Origin: Haloferax sp. Atlit-12N
Lineage (GTDB): Archaea > Halobacteriota > Halobacteria > Halobacteriales > Haloferacaceae
NCBI RefSeq assembly: GCF_003383095.1
Contig: NZ_PSYW01000004.1
Coordinates: 62,001 to 126,000 of the forward strand
Reading direction: 5' to 3'
DNA length: 64,000 bases
Shown here: positions 29,858 to 36,466 of the stretch, in pieces
Position numbering within the stretch: position 1 is the first letter of the stretch
How the letters are laid out: each line of letters begins with the position of its first letter
The notes under the pieces: generated by a model
What the model saw: the letters and a program-made list of their open reading frames with translations, nothing else
Databases searched by the model: none
Told to the model about the DNA's origin: nothing
Position numbers and translations under genes: made by a program

Positions 29858-29865
29858 GTTCTCGT
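29858..29865. repeat. Left copy of 8-bp target-site duplication GTTCTCGT
   Basis: GTTCTCGT lies directly outside the left inverted repeat and is repeated perfectly, in direct orientation, directly outside the right one (36459-36466). One base (29866 left, 36458 right) separates each copy from the 14-bp perfect inverted repeat and is taken as the first element base. Confidence 0.75.
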
Positions 29866-29895
29866 TGCTCTGTTGAAATCATTAGACCTTGACAG
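29866..29895. repeat. Left terminal inverted repeat of the element
   Basis: GCTCTGTTGAAATC (29867-29880) matches the right end perfectly in inverted orientation. The next 15 bases (ATTAGACCTTGACAG) match the corresponding right-end bases (CTCAGTCACTGATAG) at 9 of 15 positions, so the repeat decays inward. The stretch from here to 29968 holds no gene that I recognise. Confidence 0.75.
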
Positions 29896-29968
29896 AATCC
29901 GCGTGGCACAGACAGAGGGTGTATCAGTCATTACTGAGACCATCGAGACACTGGTAAGTCTGGGCGGC

Positions 29969-30529
29969 TTACTGAATACTAAACAGAGCGAGACAGGTTA
30001 TCCAGTCGTCAGTACTTGGGTCGGGAACGTTAATCTCTGCAGTGTACGTACCTGAACCGATGGCCTCTGCTTCGTTGATGTATCCCACGGCCTCTTCAAA
30101 CGACCACGCCACCGTATCCTCGGGTGCGACTGTTACCTTTCCGCTGCTGGAAGATTTCTGTTCAATCCCAGTCCATCCGGACGAATCTTTGAATCGTATT
30201 GTCCACGAGAACGGATTGAATGTTAGTTCTGTCTCAGAGGTGTTATAGAAGGTCAACGTAATCAACTCAGGAGATTTACCAACTGTCTGTGAGGGAAGTA
30301 GATACACCGAGGCAGAATCGGTCTCAACCGTGTGCGAACAGATACTGTTGTTTTGGTCCCCGTATGGAGGACAGTCATACTCCGCGATTTCTTCTGCTGA
30401 CGCTGGTGGGGCAGGAGTAACCGTTTGTCCGACTGACTGCTGTGGACTGAGAGTATTACAGCCACTTAGGAATACAATCCCTGAACCAGCCAATTGGAGG
30501 GCCGCACGACGAGACCAAAATCGTGCCAT
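29969..30529 (-). CDS. Tat-exported lipoprotein of unknown function
   Basis: The 186-residue protein starts MARFWSRRAALQLAGSGIVFLSGC: twin arginines, a hydrophobic stretch and a lipobox Cys near residue 24, so it is probably a Tat-exported lipid-anchored surface protein. The mature part has CPPYGDQNNSICSH, with two Cys that could pair, and a beta-rich stretch (LITLTFYNTSETELTFNPFSWTIRFKD) that resembles immunoglobulin-like folds of haloarchaeal surface proteins. No family was recognised. Its A+T-richer codons match the inserted element rather than the flanks. It is the leftmost cargo gene, and its 3' end lies about 100 bp inside the left end. Confidence 0.75.
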   Translation of the reverse strand: MARFWSRRAALQLAGSGIVFLSGCNTLSPQQSVGQTVTPAPPASAEEIAEYDCPPYGDQNNSICSHTVETDSASVYLLPSQTVGKSPELITLTFYNTSETELTFNPFSWTIRFKDSSGWTGIEQKSSSSGKVTVAPEDTVAWSFEEAVGYINEAEAIGSGTYTAEINVPDPSTDDWITCLALFSIQ

Positions 30530-30865
30530 GGCAATTCATAAAAAACCAATCTTGTTAGTTCTTCTGTGAATTAGGTAGAACCGTCTGCAACATACACGCC
30601 GTGTATGTAGCACGGCCGCTGAGTTCTATTCAGGTGCTGTCAGAAGCGTCGTGCAAGATCGAGAGGATATGTGCAGTACAAGGATTCCAGCAAGTTCATT
30701 GCAGACTCCGACACATCCCATCGTCGCCTTAGGACTCTAAGACATGTCCTCTGCCGATTCACAGCTAGAGTGGACGAGCCCGGAACACGTCGCAACCGTT
30801 GCTGTTACTCTTTATATAGGAGATACTGGTAGTGTCCACTTGGATTATCGAGGTACGACCCCGAC
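30530..30865. other. 336-bp gap with palindrome and element-end-like sequence
   Basis: No credible gene is seen. It holds the promoter side of the lipoprotein gene (minus strand), the 19-bp palindrome at 30590-30608, and strings AGCACGGCC (30609-30617) and TCTATTCAG (30625-30633) that both recur together at the right end of the element (36405-36420). It probably includes decayed insertion-sequence remnants. A TATA-like TTTATATAGG near 30811-30820 may be fortuitous. Confidence 0.5.
30590..30608. promoter_or_regulatory. 19-bp palindrome ACATACACGCCGTGTATGT
   Basis: Two perfect 9-bp arms flank one central base. It lies about 60 nt upstream of the lipoprotein start (minus strand) and could be an operator for that gene or a structural remnant of a mobile-element end. 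It is not followed by a T-run, so a terminator is less likely. Confidence 0.4.
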
Positions 30866-31582
30866 TCACACCGCCTCACGCCGACTCGCGCGTAACAGGA
30901 GGATGCCGAGGCCGACGAACCAGACAATCTGGGTAATCCCGAAGATGCCGCCGCCGACTTCGCCGAGTGCCGGGATGGCTGAGAGGATGCCTGCCGTACC
31001 GACCACGAGACCGACGTAGTTCAGCGCTCGGTGTAGTGCCCGTGCCCGTAGTGCGACCACGCTCACCAGAAGGGTCCAGATACCGCCGACGATCTCGTTG
31101 CCGCCACCGAGCCCGTCGATGACCGGACTGACCGCCAGCCAGACCGTCGTCGCTTGGGTCGGATCCGTGCCGTACAGATCTACGACGACGCCCGTGGCGA
31201 TGTTGGCGACCATCCCACTAGCGATGACGAGCCCGGCCCAGATCAGTCCGAACGCGGTCGTTGCCCCCATCAGCATCGGTGCGTTGTTCTTAAGGCGCGC
31301 GTGGAGTGACAGGACGAGCGCTACCAGAACGACGCCGAAGACCACGTAGATGAGTAGGTACATCGCGTACAGACTCGTCTGGTTCGCCACGAACAGTTCG
31401 ACCTGCTGGCGTGGCGCGGTAACGTTCGCAAAGTCGAGGACCACGAGGAAGTACACGATGCCGGCTACGTAGATCGCCGCCTCGGTGAGCGCTGCCAGAC
31501 CACCGACCCGCAGGTAGTTCCACCGACTCACACTGGCCGGCCGCTCAATACTCTCGACTGCTTGATTAGTAGACGATGCCAC
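30866..31582 (-). CDS. DUF4386-family membrane protein (copy 1)
   Basis: The 238-residue protein has about six to seven hydrophobic segments (LRVGGLAALTEAAIYVAGIVYFLVVL, YAMYLLIYVVFGVVLVALVL, FGLIWAGLVIASGMVANI, IVGGIWTLLVSVVALRA and others). Its layout and the charged start before the first segment resemble DUF4386/DUF998-like integral membrane proteins. It is distantly similar to the protein at 32660-33424. No catalytic motif is seen and the role is unknown. It is a cargo gene of the inserted element and stands alone on its strand, with the cupin gene 176 nt upstream. Confidence 0.7.
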   Translation of the reverse strand: MASSTNQAVESIERPASVSRWNYLRVGGLAALTEAAIYVAGIVYFLVVLDFANVTAPRQQVELFVANQTSLYAMYLLIYVVFGVVLVALVLSLHARLKNNAPMLMGATTAFGLIWAGLVIASGMVANIATGVVVDLYGTDPTQATTVWLAVSPVIDGLGGGNEIVGGIWTLLVSVVALRARALHRALNYVGLVVGTAGILSAIPALGEVGGGIFGITQIVWFVGLGILLLRASRREAV

Positions 31583-31758
31583 TATATACCACTGAGGCTA
31601 CAATAGCTATCTGAGGAGATAAGGGTGCTGCAGGTGCCTCCACTCGTCAATCATACTGTCCTCGTCCCTGTCCAGACGATTCAGACGAGCTCGCCGTTTT
31701 GCCCGATAGTCGAGAAACAAGATCGTCCACAGCATACCGGGTGTGTCTGGACTGCGGA

Positions 31759-32337
31759 CTACCTGATCGGATTCTGACCGAGCACTGTCGAGATCTTGGC
31801 GAGCACGCTCAAGAGGGGGCGCTGCAGCCACCAGGGGATCACCGCGAGACGCACGTCCGCCCGGTAGTGGGATAGCACCGCCGCCACCGCGAGTAAGTCC
31901 GGCTCCCCACCTGCACTGGCTTCATAGAGCGCCCGAATCGCGCCTTCGAATTCGCCTGGCGGGCGTAGCGTCGTCCGAACGACAAGCGTGTCGGTGCCGC
32001 TGTTTCGGATACTATGGGCCTCACCAATCTCGATAGTCAGCGACTCGCCAGGAAGCAAAGTGTGGATTTCGCCGCGTACCGTTACGTCGGCTTGACCCGC
32101 TACGACCTCCGAGTGAGCCTCCGCCCTCGGGTGAAGACGGGCGGGCCCACTGTCGATTCCCGGTGGAAGAACACCTTCCATCAGCAAGTACGCGCCTTGT
32201 TCGTCAACACTGTCTTCAAGGAACGAGATAGACGCGCCTGTCGACACGTCCTCAATGGTATTCGGATACCCAGGTAGATCGTCGTTGCTAGATCCATCTG
32301 GTACCATCGACTGTTGCGTGTCTGTCCGAGATTCCAT
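31759..32337 (-). CDS. Cupin-domain protein with C-terminal helical tail
   Basis: Starting at MESRTDTQQSM gives 192 residues (a further in-frame ATG lies 14 codons upstream). The central part is a cupin: LHPRAEAHSEVVAGQADVTVRGEIHTLLPGESLTIEIGEAHSIRNSGTDTLVVRTTLRPPGEFE, with His/Glu ligands in motif 1 and H in GEAHSI. The last about 60 residues (LLAVAAVLSHYRADVRLAVIPWWLQRPLLSVLAKI) are helical and partly hydrophobic, so the protein may touch the membrane. Small cupins of this kind often sit beside DUF4386 proteins and dehydrogenases in bacteria; the substrate is unknown. It is divergent from the DUF4386/dehydrogenase pair. A 74-codon frame over its 3' end at 31607-31831 is not convincing. Confidence 0.75.
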   Translation of the reverse strand: MESRTDTQQSMVPDGSSNDDLPGYPNTIEDVSTGASISFLEDSVDEQGAYLLMEGVLPPGIDSGPARLHPRAEAHSEVVAGQADVTVRGEIHTLLPGESLTIEIGEAHSIRNSGTDTLVVRTTLRPPGEFEGAIRALYEASAGGEPDLLAVAAVLSHYRADVRLAVIPWWLQRPLLSVLAKISTVLGQNPIR

Positions 32338-32659
32338 CCGATCTAGTAGCACTCCGGCCAGCCTAACCATTCCGCACATTCTGTCCCATACGTACTCCTC
32401 TCAGTCCCTTTGATTTGGACGAGTCACTCATTAGCGTATTAACAAGTACCAGGAGCCGACGATGGTAGCAACAAATCTCTAACTGACGGTTATGTATATC
32501 TAATACAACTGCCAGTTGACGCAAACGATTATTTCGTCTCACATCCTTCGTCTACAGTGATCCTTAGCAGACATACACAGTTGATTGGACTGCGATTCTC
32601 GTCATATCGCCATCCCAGTATCTGGTGTCGCTCAGTCAGGATTCCAAGGGGTACACCTA
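32338..32659. other. 322-bp divergent promoter region with two dyads
   Basis: Between the cupin (minus) and DUF4386 (plus) genes no coding sequence is seen. AACTGACGGTT (32481-32491) and AACTGCCAGTT (32507-32517) are two versions of one 11-bp dyad with centres 26 bp apart, on either side of a TATA-like TATGTATATC. This is the layout of a repressor controlling one or both divergent transcripts. Confidence 0.45.
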
Positions 32660-33424
32660 ATGTCAACTACAACCGCAGAGCCCGTCGGTGTCGAGCAGAC
32701 GCCGAACAAACGACCGATCTCAACCAAGAGGATAGCCCGAATAACCGGGCTCCTCTATCTACTGATCTTCGTCACTGCTGGCTTTAGCGAGGGGTTCGTC
32801 CGCGCCTCGCTCATCGTCCCCGGCGATGCGACAGCGACTGCCGCAAACATCGTCGCTTCCGAGCAACTGTTTCGGCTCGGTATCGTCAGCGACTTGATCG
32901 CCTTTTCAGCTGACGCCGTCGTAGCAGTCCTACTCTACGTTCTCCTCAGACCGGTGAGCCGAACGCTCGCAGTGATGGCCGCATCCTTACGCCTGATTGC
33001 CCACCCGGCGATAGCGAGCATCAACATGCTCAACCAGTACATGGCACTCCAGCTGCTGCGCGGCGAGGAGTACTTGACCGTCTTCAGTCCCGAACAAATT
33101 GACGCGCTCGTCTTGCTCTTCCTCACCGCACACACCTACGGCTACCTGATCGGTGGGATATTCTTCGGACTGCACCTCATCGTCTTAGGCTACCTGCTCT
33201 ACAGATCCAGCCTGTTCCCAGCGATTCTCGGTGGGCTAGTCGCCCTCGCAGCAATCGGGTACCTGACCGAGAGCTTCACGTTCTTCCTCATCCCCGCCTA
33301 CGAACCGGTCGCCACCACGATTGTCATCGTGACTGCCGTCGTCGGTGAAATCGCCCTCGCCCTGTATCTCGTGGTCAAGGGCGTCAGGACGGAGCGGCCG
33401 GCAACCCAGGAGGCGGTCCAATGA
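32660..33424 (+). CDS. DUF4386 domain membrane protein (copy 2)
   Basis: With the ATG of MSTTTAEPVGVEQTPNKRPIS as start, the protein is 254 residues with a soluble N-terminus and six to seven membrane segments. It matches DUF4386: KRIARITGLLYLLIFVTAGFSEGFVRASLIVPGDATATAANI, ALVLLFLTAHTYGYLIGGIFFGLHLIVLGYLLYRS and a final LALYLVV helix. The function of the family is unknown. Its stop overlaps the start of the dehydrogenase gene by 4 nt (ATGA), a pairing also typical of bacterial genomes, which supports lateral transfer of the pair. A longer upstream frame with a TTG start was not used. Confidence 0.88.
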   Translation: MSTTTAEPVGVEQTPNKRPISTKRIARITGLLYLLIFVTAGFSEGFVRASLIVPGDATATAANIVASEQLFRLGIVSDLIAFSADAVVAVLLYVLLRPVSRTLAVMAASLRLIAHPAIASINMLNQYMALQLLRGEEYLTVFSPEQIDALVLLFLTAHTYGYLIGGIFFGLHLIVLGYLLYRSSLFPAILGGLVALAAIGYLTESFTFFLIPAYEPVATTIVIVTAVVGEIALALYLVVKGVRTERPATQEAVQ

Positions 33425-34452
33425 CGGCCAGGAAACAGCGGGCCGAATCGCCCCACTCGACGACCGGTCACGAACCGACCACGATGACTGCGGTCGTCTA
33501 CTCGGAATACGGAGGTCCTGAGGTGCTCCGACTGGACGAGGTAGACCTGCCCACGCCGGGCGACGACGATGTCCTGGTTCGCGTGATGGCTCGATCCGTC
33601 AACGCTGGTGACTGGCACCTGCTGCGCGGAACGCCGTTCCTCGTCCGTCTCGTTTACGGCGGCTACCGCAAACCGAAGTTCCCCATTTTGGGCGTCGATA
33701 TCGCGGGACGGGTCGAAGCCGTCGGCATGAACGTCGTTGACTTCCAGTCCGGTGACGAAGTCGTCGCCGATCTCTCAAAGAACGGGTTTGGCGGGTTCGC
33801 AGAGTACGTCAGTTTGCCAGCCAGCGCTGTCGTGCGCAAGCCGGCCACGGTCTCGTTCGAGGCAGCAGCGGCAGCCCCAACTGCAGGTGTTGCCGCTCTA
33901 CAGGCACTCCGAGATGTCGGGAAGCTCCAATCAGGTGAAACCGTCCTCGTCAACGGTGCGTCGGGAGGCGTGGGAACTTTCGCCGTGCAGATCGCTAAGT
34001 TCCTCGGCGCAGAGGTCACAGCGGTGTGTAGCACAGCGAAGATGGAGACTGTCCGTGCTATCGGGGCGGACCACGTCATCGATTACACGCAGGAGGATGT
34101 TACCGAACGCGAGACAGAATACGACCTCATCCTGGACGCGGCAGGTACCCATTCGATGCGATCGTACGCACGAGTCCTTCGCCCGACAGGACGATACGTC
34201 TTCGTTGGAGGACCCACGCGACGATTCGTGACCGCACTCCTCGCGGGGCCAATGCTCTCTATGACGGGCGGAAAACGGTTCCGTACCTTCATGCTCAACC
34301 CCGACCGGGACGACCTAGCATTCGTGATGGAGCTCCTCGAATCCGGGGATGTCGAGCCCGTTATCGACCGACAGTATCACTTGGGCGAGGTGCCAGCGGC
34401 CATTCAGGATCTCGAAGCAGGTCGTGTTACCGGAAAACTCGTCGTCGTGTAG
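33421..34452 (+). CDS. NAD(P)-dependent quinone oxidoreductase-like dehydrogenase (MDR family)
   Basis: The 343-residue protein is a zinc-independent medium-chain reductase: an N-terminal GroES-like domain (VVYSEYGGPEVLRLDEVDLPTPGDDDVLVRVMARSVNAGDWH, then PILGVDIAGRVEAVG) and a Rossmann domain with VLVNGASGGVGTFAVQIAKFLGAEVTAVCST, where GxxGxxG binds the nucleotide. HYxx-type zinc ligands are missing, so a quinone or enal reductase is likely. It is coupled to the DUF4386 gene through a 4-nt overlap. The first about 20 residues are an extra polar tail and MTAVVYSEYG could be an alternative start. It is probably an oxidative-stress or detoxification enzyme carried by the inserted element. Confidence 0.9.
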   Translation: MTARKQRAESPHSTTGHEPTTMTAVVYSEYGGPEVLRLDEVDLPTPGDDDVLVRVMARSVNAGDWHLLRGTPFLVRLVYGGYRKPKFPILGVDIAGRVEAVGMNVVDFQSGDEVVADLSKNGFGGFAEYVSLPASAVVRKPATVSFEAAAAAPTAGVAALQALRDVGKLQSGETVLVNGASGGVGTFAVQIAKFLGAEVTAVCSTAKMETVRAIGADHVIDYTQEDVTERETEYDLILDAAGTHSMRSYARVLRPTGRYVFVGGPTRRFVTALLAGPMLSMTGGKRFRTFMLNPDRDDLAFVMELLESGDVEPVIDRQYHLGEVPAAIQDLEAGRVTGKLVVV

Positions 34453-34760
34453 AAATTCGAGATACACGTAATAATTCCTTCTGATGAGTTTGGAAATGAA
34501 ACCGATTAGGAGAGCCGTTTAGATGCCAACAGAAGCAAAGATTGACCAAACCCTTGAACCTCGGAGTTGATTGCTGCATTGCGTGCATACAGAGCGCGCG
34601 TCCGTAACTGTCGCTATGGCTTATCCACTGAGCCGATACTGAGTTCGTCAGCCTGGAGCTGTCGCGCTTCTGTTCCTCCAATCAGTTGTTCTCGGCCGAA
34701 GTGTCGGCCACCCAGTGCCAGTTCGTGAAGAACAACTGGTCGCCTACTGTCGGTCGGTGT
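34453..34760. other. 308-bp gap, possible gene remnant
   Basis: No complete gene. On the minus strand the flavodoxin frame continues in phase past its stop for about 46 codons (TPTDSRRPVVLHELALGG onward to SVDKP), without a start of its own. This could be chance or a remnant of a once longer neighbour. A+T content is that of the inserted element. Confidence 0.4.
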
Positions 34761-35330
34761 TCAGGCTGCTTTGACCGCCTCACCCAGTCGCTCCTCAACG
34801 AACACAGCGAACTCACCGGCAAAGGACGCGACCGATTCCCAGTCGGTGAGTTCGGCGTCTCCTGACTCGTCCATCTCGAATTCCTGGTTTCTCACGATGA
34901 ACTTCAGCAGCGCTCGCTTGAGAAAGCCGTACTCTGAGAAGCGTAGCGCGCCGCCGAAGAGAGTGATTCTATCGGGCTGCCAGTTCGTGTCGTCGATAAA
35001 CTTGTCGAGGTATCCCGTCGCCTCCGAGAGCCCCTCTTCATTCTTCGCCCCGGACGCACCGGAGACTTGGAAGAATCCGTTCGGCTTTCTCACCAGTACG
35101 TCGCGGTTCGTTTTGACCCACCTCCGAACTGACTTCTGTTGTCTCCCATAGTGGACTGACGCACCGACCAAGACGGCGTCAAACTCGTCAAGATTGAGTT
35201 CGGGATCGATCTCCGCGACGTTCACCGTTGTTGCCTTGTGGTCGCGGGCTTTGAATCCCTCCGTGATGCTGTCGGCTATCTTTGCGGTCTGTCCCTCGCC
35301 AGTTCCAAACACAGTGAGAATGGTGGCCAT
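34761..35330 (-). CDS. Flavodoxin-domain protein (HemG-like)
   Basis: Beginning at MATILTVFGTGEGQTAKIADSITEGF, the 189-residue protein has the FMN phosphate-binding loop TVFGTGEGQTAKIA and VLVGASVHYGRQQKSVRRWVKTNRD, as in menaquinone-dependent protoporphyrinogen oxidase HemG and its flavodoxin relatives, then FGGALRFSEYGFLKRALLKFIV. HemG-type enzymes oxidise protoporphyrinogen IX, but haloarchaea have other haem routes and no haem gene is near, so a general electron-transfer or quinone-reducing role is as likely. It belongs to the cargo of the inserted element. The annotated start avoids an upstream ATG nine codons earlier, because the fold starts here. Confidence 0.85.
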   Translation of the reverse strand: MATILTVFGTGEGQTAKIADSITEGFKARDHKATTVNVAEIDPELNLDEFDAVLVGASVHYGRQQKSVRRWVKTNRDVLVRKPNGFFQVSGASGAKNEEGLSEATGYLDKFIDDTNWQPDRITLFGGALRFSEYGFLKRALLKFIVRNQEFEMDESGDAELTDWESVASFAGEFAVFVEERLGEAVKAA

Positions 35331-35653
35331 ACCAGAGATAGCGTCGCCATCAATCAAATACTAGCTGCAGATCTTCGTGGGCAAACAACCTGTCATTGAT
35401 GCTCTACGCTGCGTCATTATTCTGATTTTTTATCGAGCAGAACTCTCCAGTGAATCCCGTCGCTCACTTGATCCTCTGTACACAGAGCAACTCGACGACC
35501 TACTCGAAGTCTACCAGAAGGATGTGACCAACTCGGCGCGCGAACTACACAACCATTCCCGGTGATCAGAGCCGTGACTTTGTCCGTAATGGTGAGGAAA
35601 TGGGACACGAGAAAAGGGTGTTCTTAAGAAACGAGTACCTTCGAAAGACCACA
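35331..35653. other. 323-bp gap without a clear gene
   Basis: A 62-codon plus-strand frame (35377-35565) whose last part reads LDPLYTEQLDDLLEVYQKDVTNSARELH lacks a convincing start and may be a remnant. Otherwise nothing was recognised. The base composition matches the inserted element. Confidence 0.35.
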
Positions 35654-36238
35654 TCACAGCCGCCGCTTGTTGTTCTCATCGTATGCTCGGAGATCCTGCG
35701 CCGCGAGTGTGACCGTTCGTTCGATCCGCTTTTGCCTGGTCTCGTCCGTCTTAGCCTCCTCGACGGCCGCGATGAAAGCATACTGGTCCGAATTCGAGAA
35801 GTTCTGGAAGTTCTCCCAGGCGGTTTCATCCGCACGCAGCGCTGCCTCAAGTTCGGCCGGGACCTTGTGGTCGTCGCCGAGGCGATAGGCAGCCGCCCAC
35901 TCGCCCGTTTCCTTCGCCACTTCGACGAGTTCCATTCCGGCCGGGGTCATCTTTCCCGCCTGGATCATCGCGCCGACCCGCTCCTTGTTCGCCTTCGACC
36001 ACTTGCTGTCGGGGCTCCTGGGCGTGAACCGACGGGTGTATGTCTCATCGTCGATGCCTTTGACCAGGCCGTCGACCCACCCGAAGCAGAGCGCTTCCTC
36101 AACTGACTCGTCGTATCCAATACCAACTCGCTCGGCATCGGCCTTGTAGTAGCCGACCCACAGTTCCTCTGCCGTGTCGTGGTGCTCTTCTAGCCAGGTA
36201 CGGAACTCGTTCTGAGACTCGAAGAACATCGGGTCCAT
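35654..36238 (-). CDS. YdeI/OmpD-associated (bacteriocin-protection-like) protein
   Basis: The 194-residue protein matches the YdeI family: FFESQNEFRTWLEEHHDTAEELWVGYYKADAER, GIGYDESVEEALCFGWVDGLVKGIDDETYTRRFTPRSPDSKWSKANKERV, and the C-terminal helical YdeI repeat with LRADETAWENFQNFSNSDQYAFIAAVEEAKTDETRQKRI. In bacteria members are linked to resistance to antimicrobial peptides or surface stress, with the mechanism unknown. Full length and intact. It is the rightmost cargo gene of the inserted element, with its start about 220 bp from the right end. Family members are mostly bacterial, consistent with transfer. Confidence 0.9.
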   Translation of the reverse strand: MDPMFFESQNEFRTWLEEHHDTAEELWVGYYKADAERVGIGYDESVEEALCFGWVDGLVKGIDDETYTRRFTPRSPDSKWSKANKERVGAMIQAGKMTPAGMELVEVAKETGEWAAAYRLGDDHKVPAELEAALRADETAWENFQNFSNSDQYAFIAAVEEAKTDETRQKRIERTVTLAAQDLRAYDENNKRRL

Positions 36239-36388
36239 GCAGTAAGAAAGGCACCATATATCAAGAACCCTACTCTAAATGTGAGCACTAATGAGGATTC
36301 TTAGAGGATTCGGGGTGAGATAATGTCTACAGTAACACCGTCGCTACTACTGACCGCCCCGAACACGTCTTAGCATAGCGACCTCCCG

Positions 36389-36417
36389 TGCTGAATTCGC
36401 GCACTCTATTCAGCACG
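36389..36417. repeat. Hairpin near right end of the element
   Basis: GTGCTGAAT (36389-36397) is inverted as ATTCAGCAC (36409-36417), a 9-bp stem with an 11-nt loop. It overlaps TCTATTCAG and AGCACGGCC, which also occur near 30609-30633. It is probably part of a mobile-element end or an insulating terminator. Confidence 0.45.
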
Positions 36418-36428
36418 GCCTCAACAAA

Positions 36429-36458
36429 CTATCAGTGACTGAGGATTTCAACAGAGCC
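36429..36458. repeat. Right terminal inverted repeat of the element
   Basis: GATTTCAACAGAGC (36444-36457) is the exact inverse of the left-end 14-mer at 29867-29880, and 36429-36443 continues the match imperfectly. It is followed after one base by GTTCTCGT. Confidence 0.75.
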
Positions 36459-36466
36459 GTTCTCGT
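36459..36466. repeat. Right copy of 8-bp target-site duplication GTTCTCGT
   Basis: Identical to 29858-29865 and in the same orientation. Removing 29866-36466 would restore a gap joining the LUD hairpin region directly to the promoter of the zinc-finger gene at 36534. Confidence 0.75.

Follow-up and report, generated by a model that had tools for sequence, protein, structure and literature searches.

Passenger genes that move between transposon ends without an own transposase have been described in several forms. Mobile insertion cassettes (MICs), such as the qnrS2 element of Aeromonas, carry passenger genes, are devoid of a transposase and are mobilised in trans (PMC5444012); TIME-COMPs are Tn3-derived miniature elements bounded by two whole mini-elements (PMC13367494, PMC4133298); and the Haloquadratum families of miniature inverted-repeat transposable elements (MITEs) reach at most about 520 bp and are, with one exception, non-coding (PMC3119063). 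Integron cassette arrays, including those of archaeal integrons, consist of head-to-tail cassettes parted by a conserved intergenic sequence (PMC9668308). Here we describe an element, termed the target, from Haloferax sp. Atlit-12N (assembly GCF_003383095.1), located within a stretch of 64,000 nucleotides of contig NZ_PSYW01000004.1 (positions 62,001 to 126,000; the window, to which the target coordinates refer). With a probability of about three in four, we consider it a non-autonomous transposon with insertion sequence (IS) ends of the IS5 family (ISHla2-type), forming a shell moved in trans with exchangeable, serial cassettes. Like MICs, it holds passenger genes between IS- or MITE-type ends in the absence of a transposase, with mobilisation in trans inferred, but its family differs in interiors that appear to be exchanged at fixed sites and in cassettes arranged in series with a conserved boundary. 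It shares with TIME-COMPs non-autonomous ends mobilising the genes between them, whereas it is bordered on either side by one IS5-type end of some 65 bp and not by whole Tn3-family mini-elements. As for the Haloquadratum MITEs, it is transposase-free, with a terminal inverted repeat (TIR) and a duplication length common to a family transposon, from which it is set apart by its size (6.6 kb) and coding cargo.

Comparison with sister copies placed the bounds of the target at 29866-36458 (6,593 bp) and defined a TIR of 16 bp, GGCTCTGTTGAAATCC, whose left copy, TGCTCTGTTGAAATCA, is mutated at positions 1 and 16. A preliminary description of the locus, based on the letters alone, had reported perfect 14-bp inverted ends, and the 14-mer GCTCTGTTGAAATC is indeed present at 29867-29880 (+) and 36444-36457 (−), with no further copy elsewhere in the window at two mismatches allowed; the imperfect inward extension of these ends is likewise real, spanning 29 nt at 79%. 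The left end (LE; 29866-29930, + strand; LE profile 63.8 bits) is composed of the TIR TGCTCTGTTGAAATCA and an inner segment (GACAGAATCCGCGTGGCACAGACAGAGGG), the right end (RE; 36387-36458, − strand; RE profile 75.9 bits) of an inner segment and the 16-bp TIR. An exact 8-bp target duplication, GTTCTCGT, flanks the element at 29858-29865 and 36459-36466. The duplication itself had been recognised correctly, though not its position immediately outside the 14-mer, as a single base, T at the left end and C at the right, lies in between and is owned by the TIR. The interior is A+T-richer, as initially described, with a G+C content of 56.5% compared to 66.8% in the remaining window. Searching relatives with the two target flanks joined, a check proposed at the outset, yielded an uninterrupted site in four Haloferax relatives (G004, G010, G012, G014) with one GTTCTCGG exactly at the junction, whereas the corresponding empty site of G002 has diverged. 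These empty sites, each keeping a single GTTCTCGG, support insertion of the target by transposition and bear out the initial view of an element that carries passenger genes but no transposase of its own, a view which had overlooked the large family, the swappable cargo and the internal boundary outlined below.

The target is one member of a large haloarchaeal family of transposase-less shells with swappable cassettes. Our survey of this family relied on searches and on retrieved stretches of sequence, the resulting inventory being a sample and not a census. Across all loci fetched, 49 end pairs, a few of which are orthologous copies of one insertion, carry perfect 8/8 duplications at exactly the expected offset, whereas five shifted controls for each pair gave 0, and 7 further pairs show 7/8 duplications versus about 1 in the controls, confirming that the match of the 8-mers is beyond chance. 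Family sizes extend from 124-bp MITEs up to 6.6 kb, and the cargo includes merA together with an arsenic transporter as well as RelBE-like, HicA, MNT and Nudix genes. The 72-bp RE of a sibling element (C4:137063-137134) was matched in 116 of the 148 sampled genomes of the family and on 93 plasmids, an exact RE pattern search of the genome contigs returned only 8 loci, and phage sequences gave no match to the RE or boundary queries. Copies with different cargo, as sought in the preliminary description, were found in other haloarchaea and in the same genome, where further elements share both the LE and the RE of the target. Among these are a 770-bp RelBE-like unit and a 124-bp MITE, a 2.8-kb compound (L022:229-3049) with an MNT-type nucleotidyltransferase gene between the end of a 123-bp MITE and that of a 712-bp element within one outer duplication, AGAAATAA, and a second multi-gene element of 6.0 kb (G000:C1:880891-886898; L274:2892-8899; duplication ACGTTGTC) that encodes paralogues of the target membrane and cupin genes and its own DUF4386 and MDR genes. 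The latter is present in H. marisrubri as a 9.4-kb version with extra cassettes containing HicA-like and Imm49-like genes; judged by eye, a PAS-type kinase is also among them. On plasmid pSVX82-3 of Haloferax lucentense (NZ_CP104744.1, L190:647-4070), merA, an arsenic-resistance transporter and a helix-turn-helix regulator lie between such ends with a perfect duplication, GAACAGCA. A MITE subfamily of 124-125 bp, identical in its TIR and flanked by perfect 8-bp duplications, occupies about ten places (L054, L194, L202, L203, L206, L210, L215, L218, L219, L230). A shared helper element seems to move these shells.

The transposase-encoding relatives belong to the IS5 family (NF033579, PF01609), more than 15 of the sampled IS5_2/PF01609 transposase elements having this TIR together with 8/8 duplications. 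Among named ISs, the closest is ISHla2 of Halorubrum lacusprofundi and relatives, with a protein identity of 81.7% and a locus showing the TIR GGCTCTGTTGAAATCC; a 1,193-bp copy in L261, probably ISHla2 as judged by its length and ends, has an 8/8 duplication. Sharing TIR and 8-bp duplication with the target, ISHla2 is the presumed transposase source, but it measures about 1.2 kb including its transposase, whereas the 6.6-kb target contains seven cargo genes and none. Neither the TIR string nor ISHla2 turned up in a search of the literature. Transposase elements with mixed ends, the distal one being of cargo type (L112/L248, L255) or MITE type (L256), indicate that the ends would be interchangeable and that one transposase may accept cargo-, MITE- and transposase-type ends. 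Most transposase-bearing elements hold an extra passenger open reading frame (ORF); in the autonomous ISHla2-type elements L082, L108 and L112-L115 (1.4-1.8 kb) a different additional ORF accompanies the transposase, and L111 (1.2 kb) has none. An ISHla2-type transposase is present in most other Haloferax sampled. Because the target has matching IS5-type ends and duplications in a host assembly without such a transposase, mobilisation in trans, as suggested initially, is the best reading, most likely by an outside transposase or an unassembled copy. The alternative proposed alongside, a composite unit with lost transposases, is unlikely, since the flanks carry single TIR ends and no full IS copies.

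The LE and RE profiles furthermore revealed internal copies devoid of the TIR and fused head-to-tail into a 93-bp sequence consisting of the RE-inner half, a 23-nt centre and the LE-inner half. In the target, one such boundary (30596-30678, + strand; boundary profile 46 bits), recovered by a second search as well, parts a first cassette with a lipoprotein-like gene from a redox/stress-like block, and two are held by the 6.0-kb element. The boundary profile detected 58 distinct full copies in the loci fetched, compared to 0 matches at >=15 bits in an equal amount of shuffled sequence. In about 39 of 47 usable boundaries the centre measures exactly 23 nt, and it has its own consensus. Neighbouring boundaries share their orientation in 30/31 cases at a spacing of 270-1,861 bp. 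Arrays of 5-9 full boundaries part genes on complete plasmids of Haloprofundus and Haloarcula, where 0/32 boundaries overlap an annotated gene by >30 nt, though about half of the sequence is annotated coding. In Haloprofundus halobius, boundaries lie on plasmid unnamed2 (NZ_CP083668) at about 62,600-70,500. The RelBE-like cassette residing in a TIR shell of the target genome, at a site designated B, is 92% identical to a cassette between two boundaries in another genus, the homology ending inside the boundaries. An OB-fold DNA-binding protein of ~300 residues adjoins an array in Haloprofundus (L305:12486-13382) as well as the Haloferax merA element (L292:1108-2007).

Plain MICs, assembled once and moved as a block, could account for all outer-shell features without any exchange, the arrays then representing adjacent or nested landings from which the abutting TIR palindrome was deleted. 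The compound of a MITE and an element within a common outer duplication in the target genome agrees with such landings, as does the faint likeness of the boundary centres to the LE TIR (GAAACCT versus GAAATCCT). However, centres fixed at 23 nt with their own consensus do not resemble scattered deletions, one cassette is common to shell and array, and sites alike in duplication and ends hold different interiors, leaving this explanation a credible minority position. Somewhat less probable is an integron-like system, wherein a putative recombinase acting on the 93-bp boundary would excise and insert single cassettes, while the IS5-type shell only spreads the array. Its attraction stems from the head-to-tail arrays, which on complete plasmids number as many as 9 full boundaries, and from the fixed length and intergenic placement of the boundary, by which these arrays do resemble integron arrays. 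In contrast to integrons, the attC boxes R'' (RYYYAAC) and R' (GTTRRRY) are found together in 0/58 boundaries, the outer ends are IS5-type with a target duplication, boundary folding and co-variation are weak, and the elements examined contain no integrase or other recombinase gene, although the genomes were not searched for intI. A single phage-type integrase near one array (L307) has no counterpart beside the other arrays read. Integron membership is thus not supported.

An exchange of cargo is indicated by orthologous sites, found by clustering ends on their outer flank, in comparisons that rest mostly on draft genomes. At several of them flanks, duplication and ends are kept while the interior is wholly different. 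Site B contains the RelBE-like cassette in the target genome and an unrelated 249-aa ORF in H. marisrubri, with both flanks in common as well as duplication copies exhibiting the identical mutual mismatch (GGGAAATC/GGAAAATC). Here, 75 identical bases run from the duplication into the LE before identity ends abruptly, on the right side identity stops about 55 bp inside, and the LE is identical at 65/65 positions between the two genomes and found nowhere else in the sample. Site C shows a similar pattern of shared flanks around interiors of 467 and 1,541 bp, sites F and G follow the pattern of site B, and at site D additional cassettes have been acquired next to either end in H. marisrubri. The target genome assembly does not contain the other cargo known from sites A and B, therefore no simple exchange between two cargoes of this assembly took place, and a swap by mis-joining inside it is disfavoured. 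In both H. marisrubri and H. denitrificans, the target site has an RE at the same position and in the same orientation, with the LE lost and with other cargo, namely a DUF7387 gene, which we take to be a HicB-like partner, and its neighbours.

Independent insertions into hot spots could also give rise to such pairs of same site and different cargo, and the target site, where the occupied genomes are not monophyletic and the REs are not mutual best matches, would be compatible with them. Nevertheless, we regard them as an improbable general explanation, as independent insertions would give fresh, identical duplications, in conflict with the shared mismatch and the unique 65/65 LE of site B. Mobilisation by an IS6 or IS1595 element, the latter named in the preliminary description, is very improbable: duplications of 8 bp can arise from either family and the TIR resembles IS6 ends, but 0/29 PF13610 loci of the genus are bounded by an inverted pair of such ends, which led us to reject the IS6 assignment, no PF13610 was found in the host genome, many IS5-family transposase elements are bounded by these ends, and ends and duplication belong to the ISHla2 type, IS1595 transposases not themselves having been searched for.

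For the favoured reading, a trans-moved shell with exchangeable cassettes, we envisage that an ISHla2-type transposase encoded by a different replicon or supplied by a mating partner would cut at GGCTCTGTTGAAATCC and insert the whole unit, generating the 8-bp duplication. The shell would hold gene cassettes edged by the inner 45-65 bp of the ends, which could be substituted for one another while the insertion site stays the same and could also be joined in a row, the meeting point of two cassettes leaving the 93-bp boundary. Most likely, exchange would proceed by homologous recombination of a resident with an incoming element at these conserved segments of ends and boundaries, so that transposition would move the outer shell and recombination swap the interior. 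Several points weigh against this reading. The host assembly lacks a match to an ISHla2-type transposase, which a 104-contig draft could miss. By RE similarity, the copies that H. marisrubri and H. denitrificans carry at the target site do not stand out, and the three genomes occupied there do not form a clade in the flank tree; this site would fit a single insertion followed by exchange as well as separate insertions. Drafts make up most of the genomes compared, so individual cases may reflect misassembly at the ends of 60 bp. AttC-like folding of the boundary proved no better than that of shuffles (z 0.6 to -1.6) and is not supported, and its halves showed no clear co-variation (p 0.07, one compensatory pair). 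Transposition and cassette exchange are both deduced from sequence. Only tentatively, and at somewhat less than even odds, do we propose a haloarchaeal cassette-array system in which 93-bp-bounded cassettes would be captured, swapped and chained in IS5-type shells, doing the job of integrons by an unrelated mechanism.

The seven genes of the target comprise, from left to right, the lipoprotein-like protein of cassette 1 (186 aa; 29969-30529, −) and a membrane protein (238 aa; 30866-31582, −), both without a Pfam family, a cupin-domain protein (31759-32379, −; Cupin_2, 4e-9), a DUF4386 membrane protein (32660-33424, +; 2.7e-60), a dehydrogenase of the MDR/NAD(P)H quinone-oxidoreductase type (33421-34452, +; ADH_zinc_N_2, ADH_N), whose best NCBIfam match, TIGR02824, is under that model's cut-off, a HemG-like flavodoxin-domain protein (34761-35330, −; Flavodoxin_5, 3e-31) and a YdeI/OmpD-associated family protein (35654-36238, −; OmdA, 3e-20). 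All five families named initially are thereby backed by Pfam, and reading the seven genes against Pfam and NCBIfam revealed no transposase, as had been noted. A weak RE-inner remnant ahead of the flavodoxin/YdeI module (34548-34609, +; RE profile E 5e-4) is possibly a decayed, inverted boundary; the boundary profile gave no match there. The flavodoxin/YdeI and membrane/cupin modules occur apart in other Haloferax, the module of the 238-aa membrane protein is found separately in several other Haloferax genomes with a paralogue in the same genome, and the YdeI gene stands alone between such ends in Halopiger xanaduensis (duplication CGGTGATC). A Salinirubellus plasmid carries a gene set matching that of the target in rearranged order.

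These data tie scattered, unannotated haloarchaeal genes, among them toxin-antitoxin-like pairs, metal resistance genes, regulators and redox enzymes, to one mobile platform, which is now given a likely transposase and whose cargo is seen changing at fixed sites. If cassettes are indeed exchanged at the 93-bp boundary, transposon ends would have furnished archaea with an integron-like system for capturing genes, an idea that is testable in the genetically tractable Haloferax.

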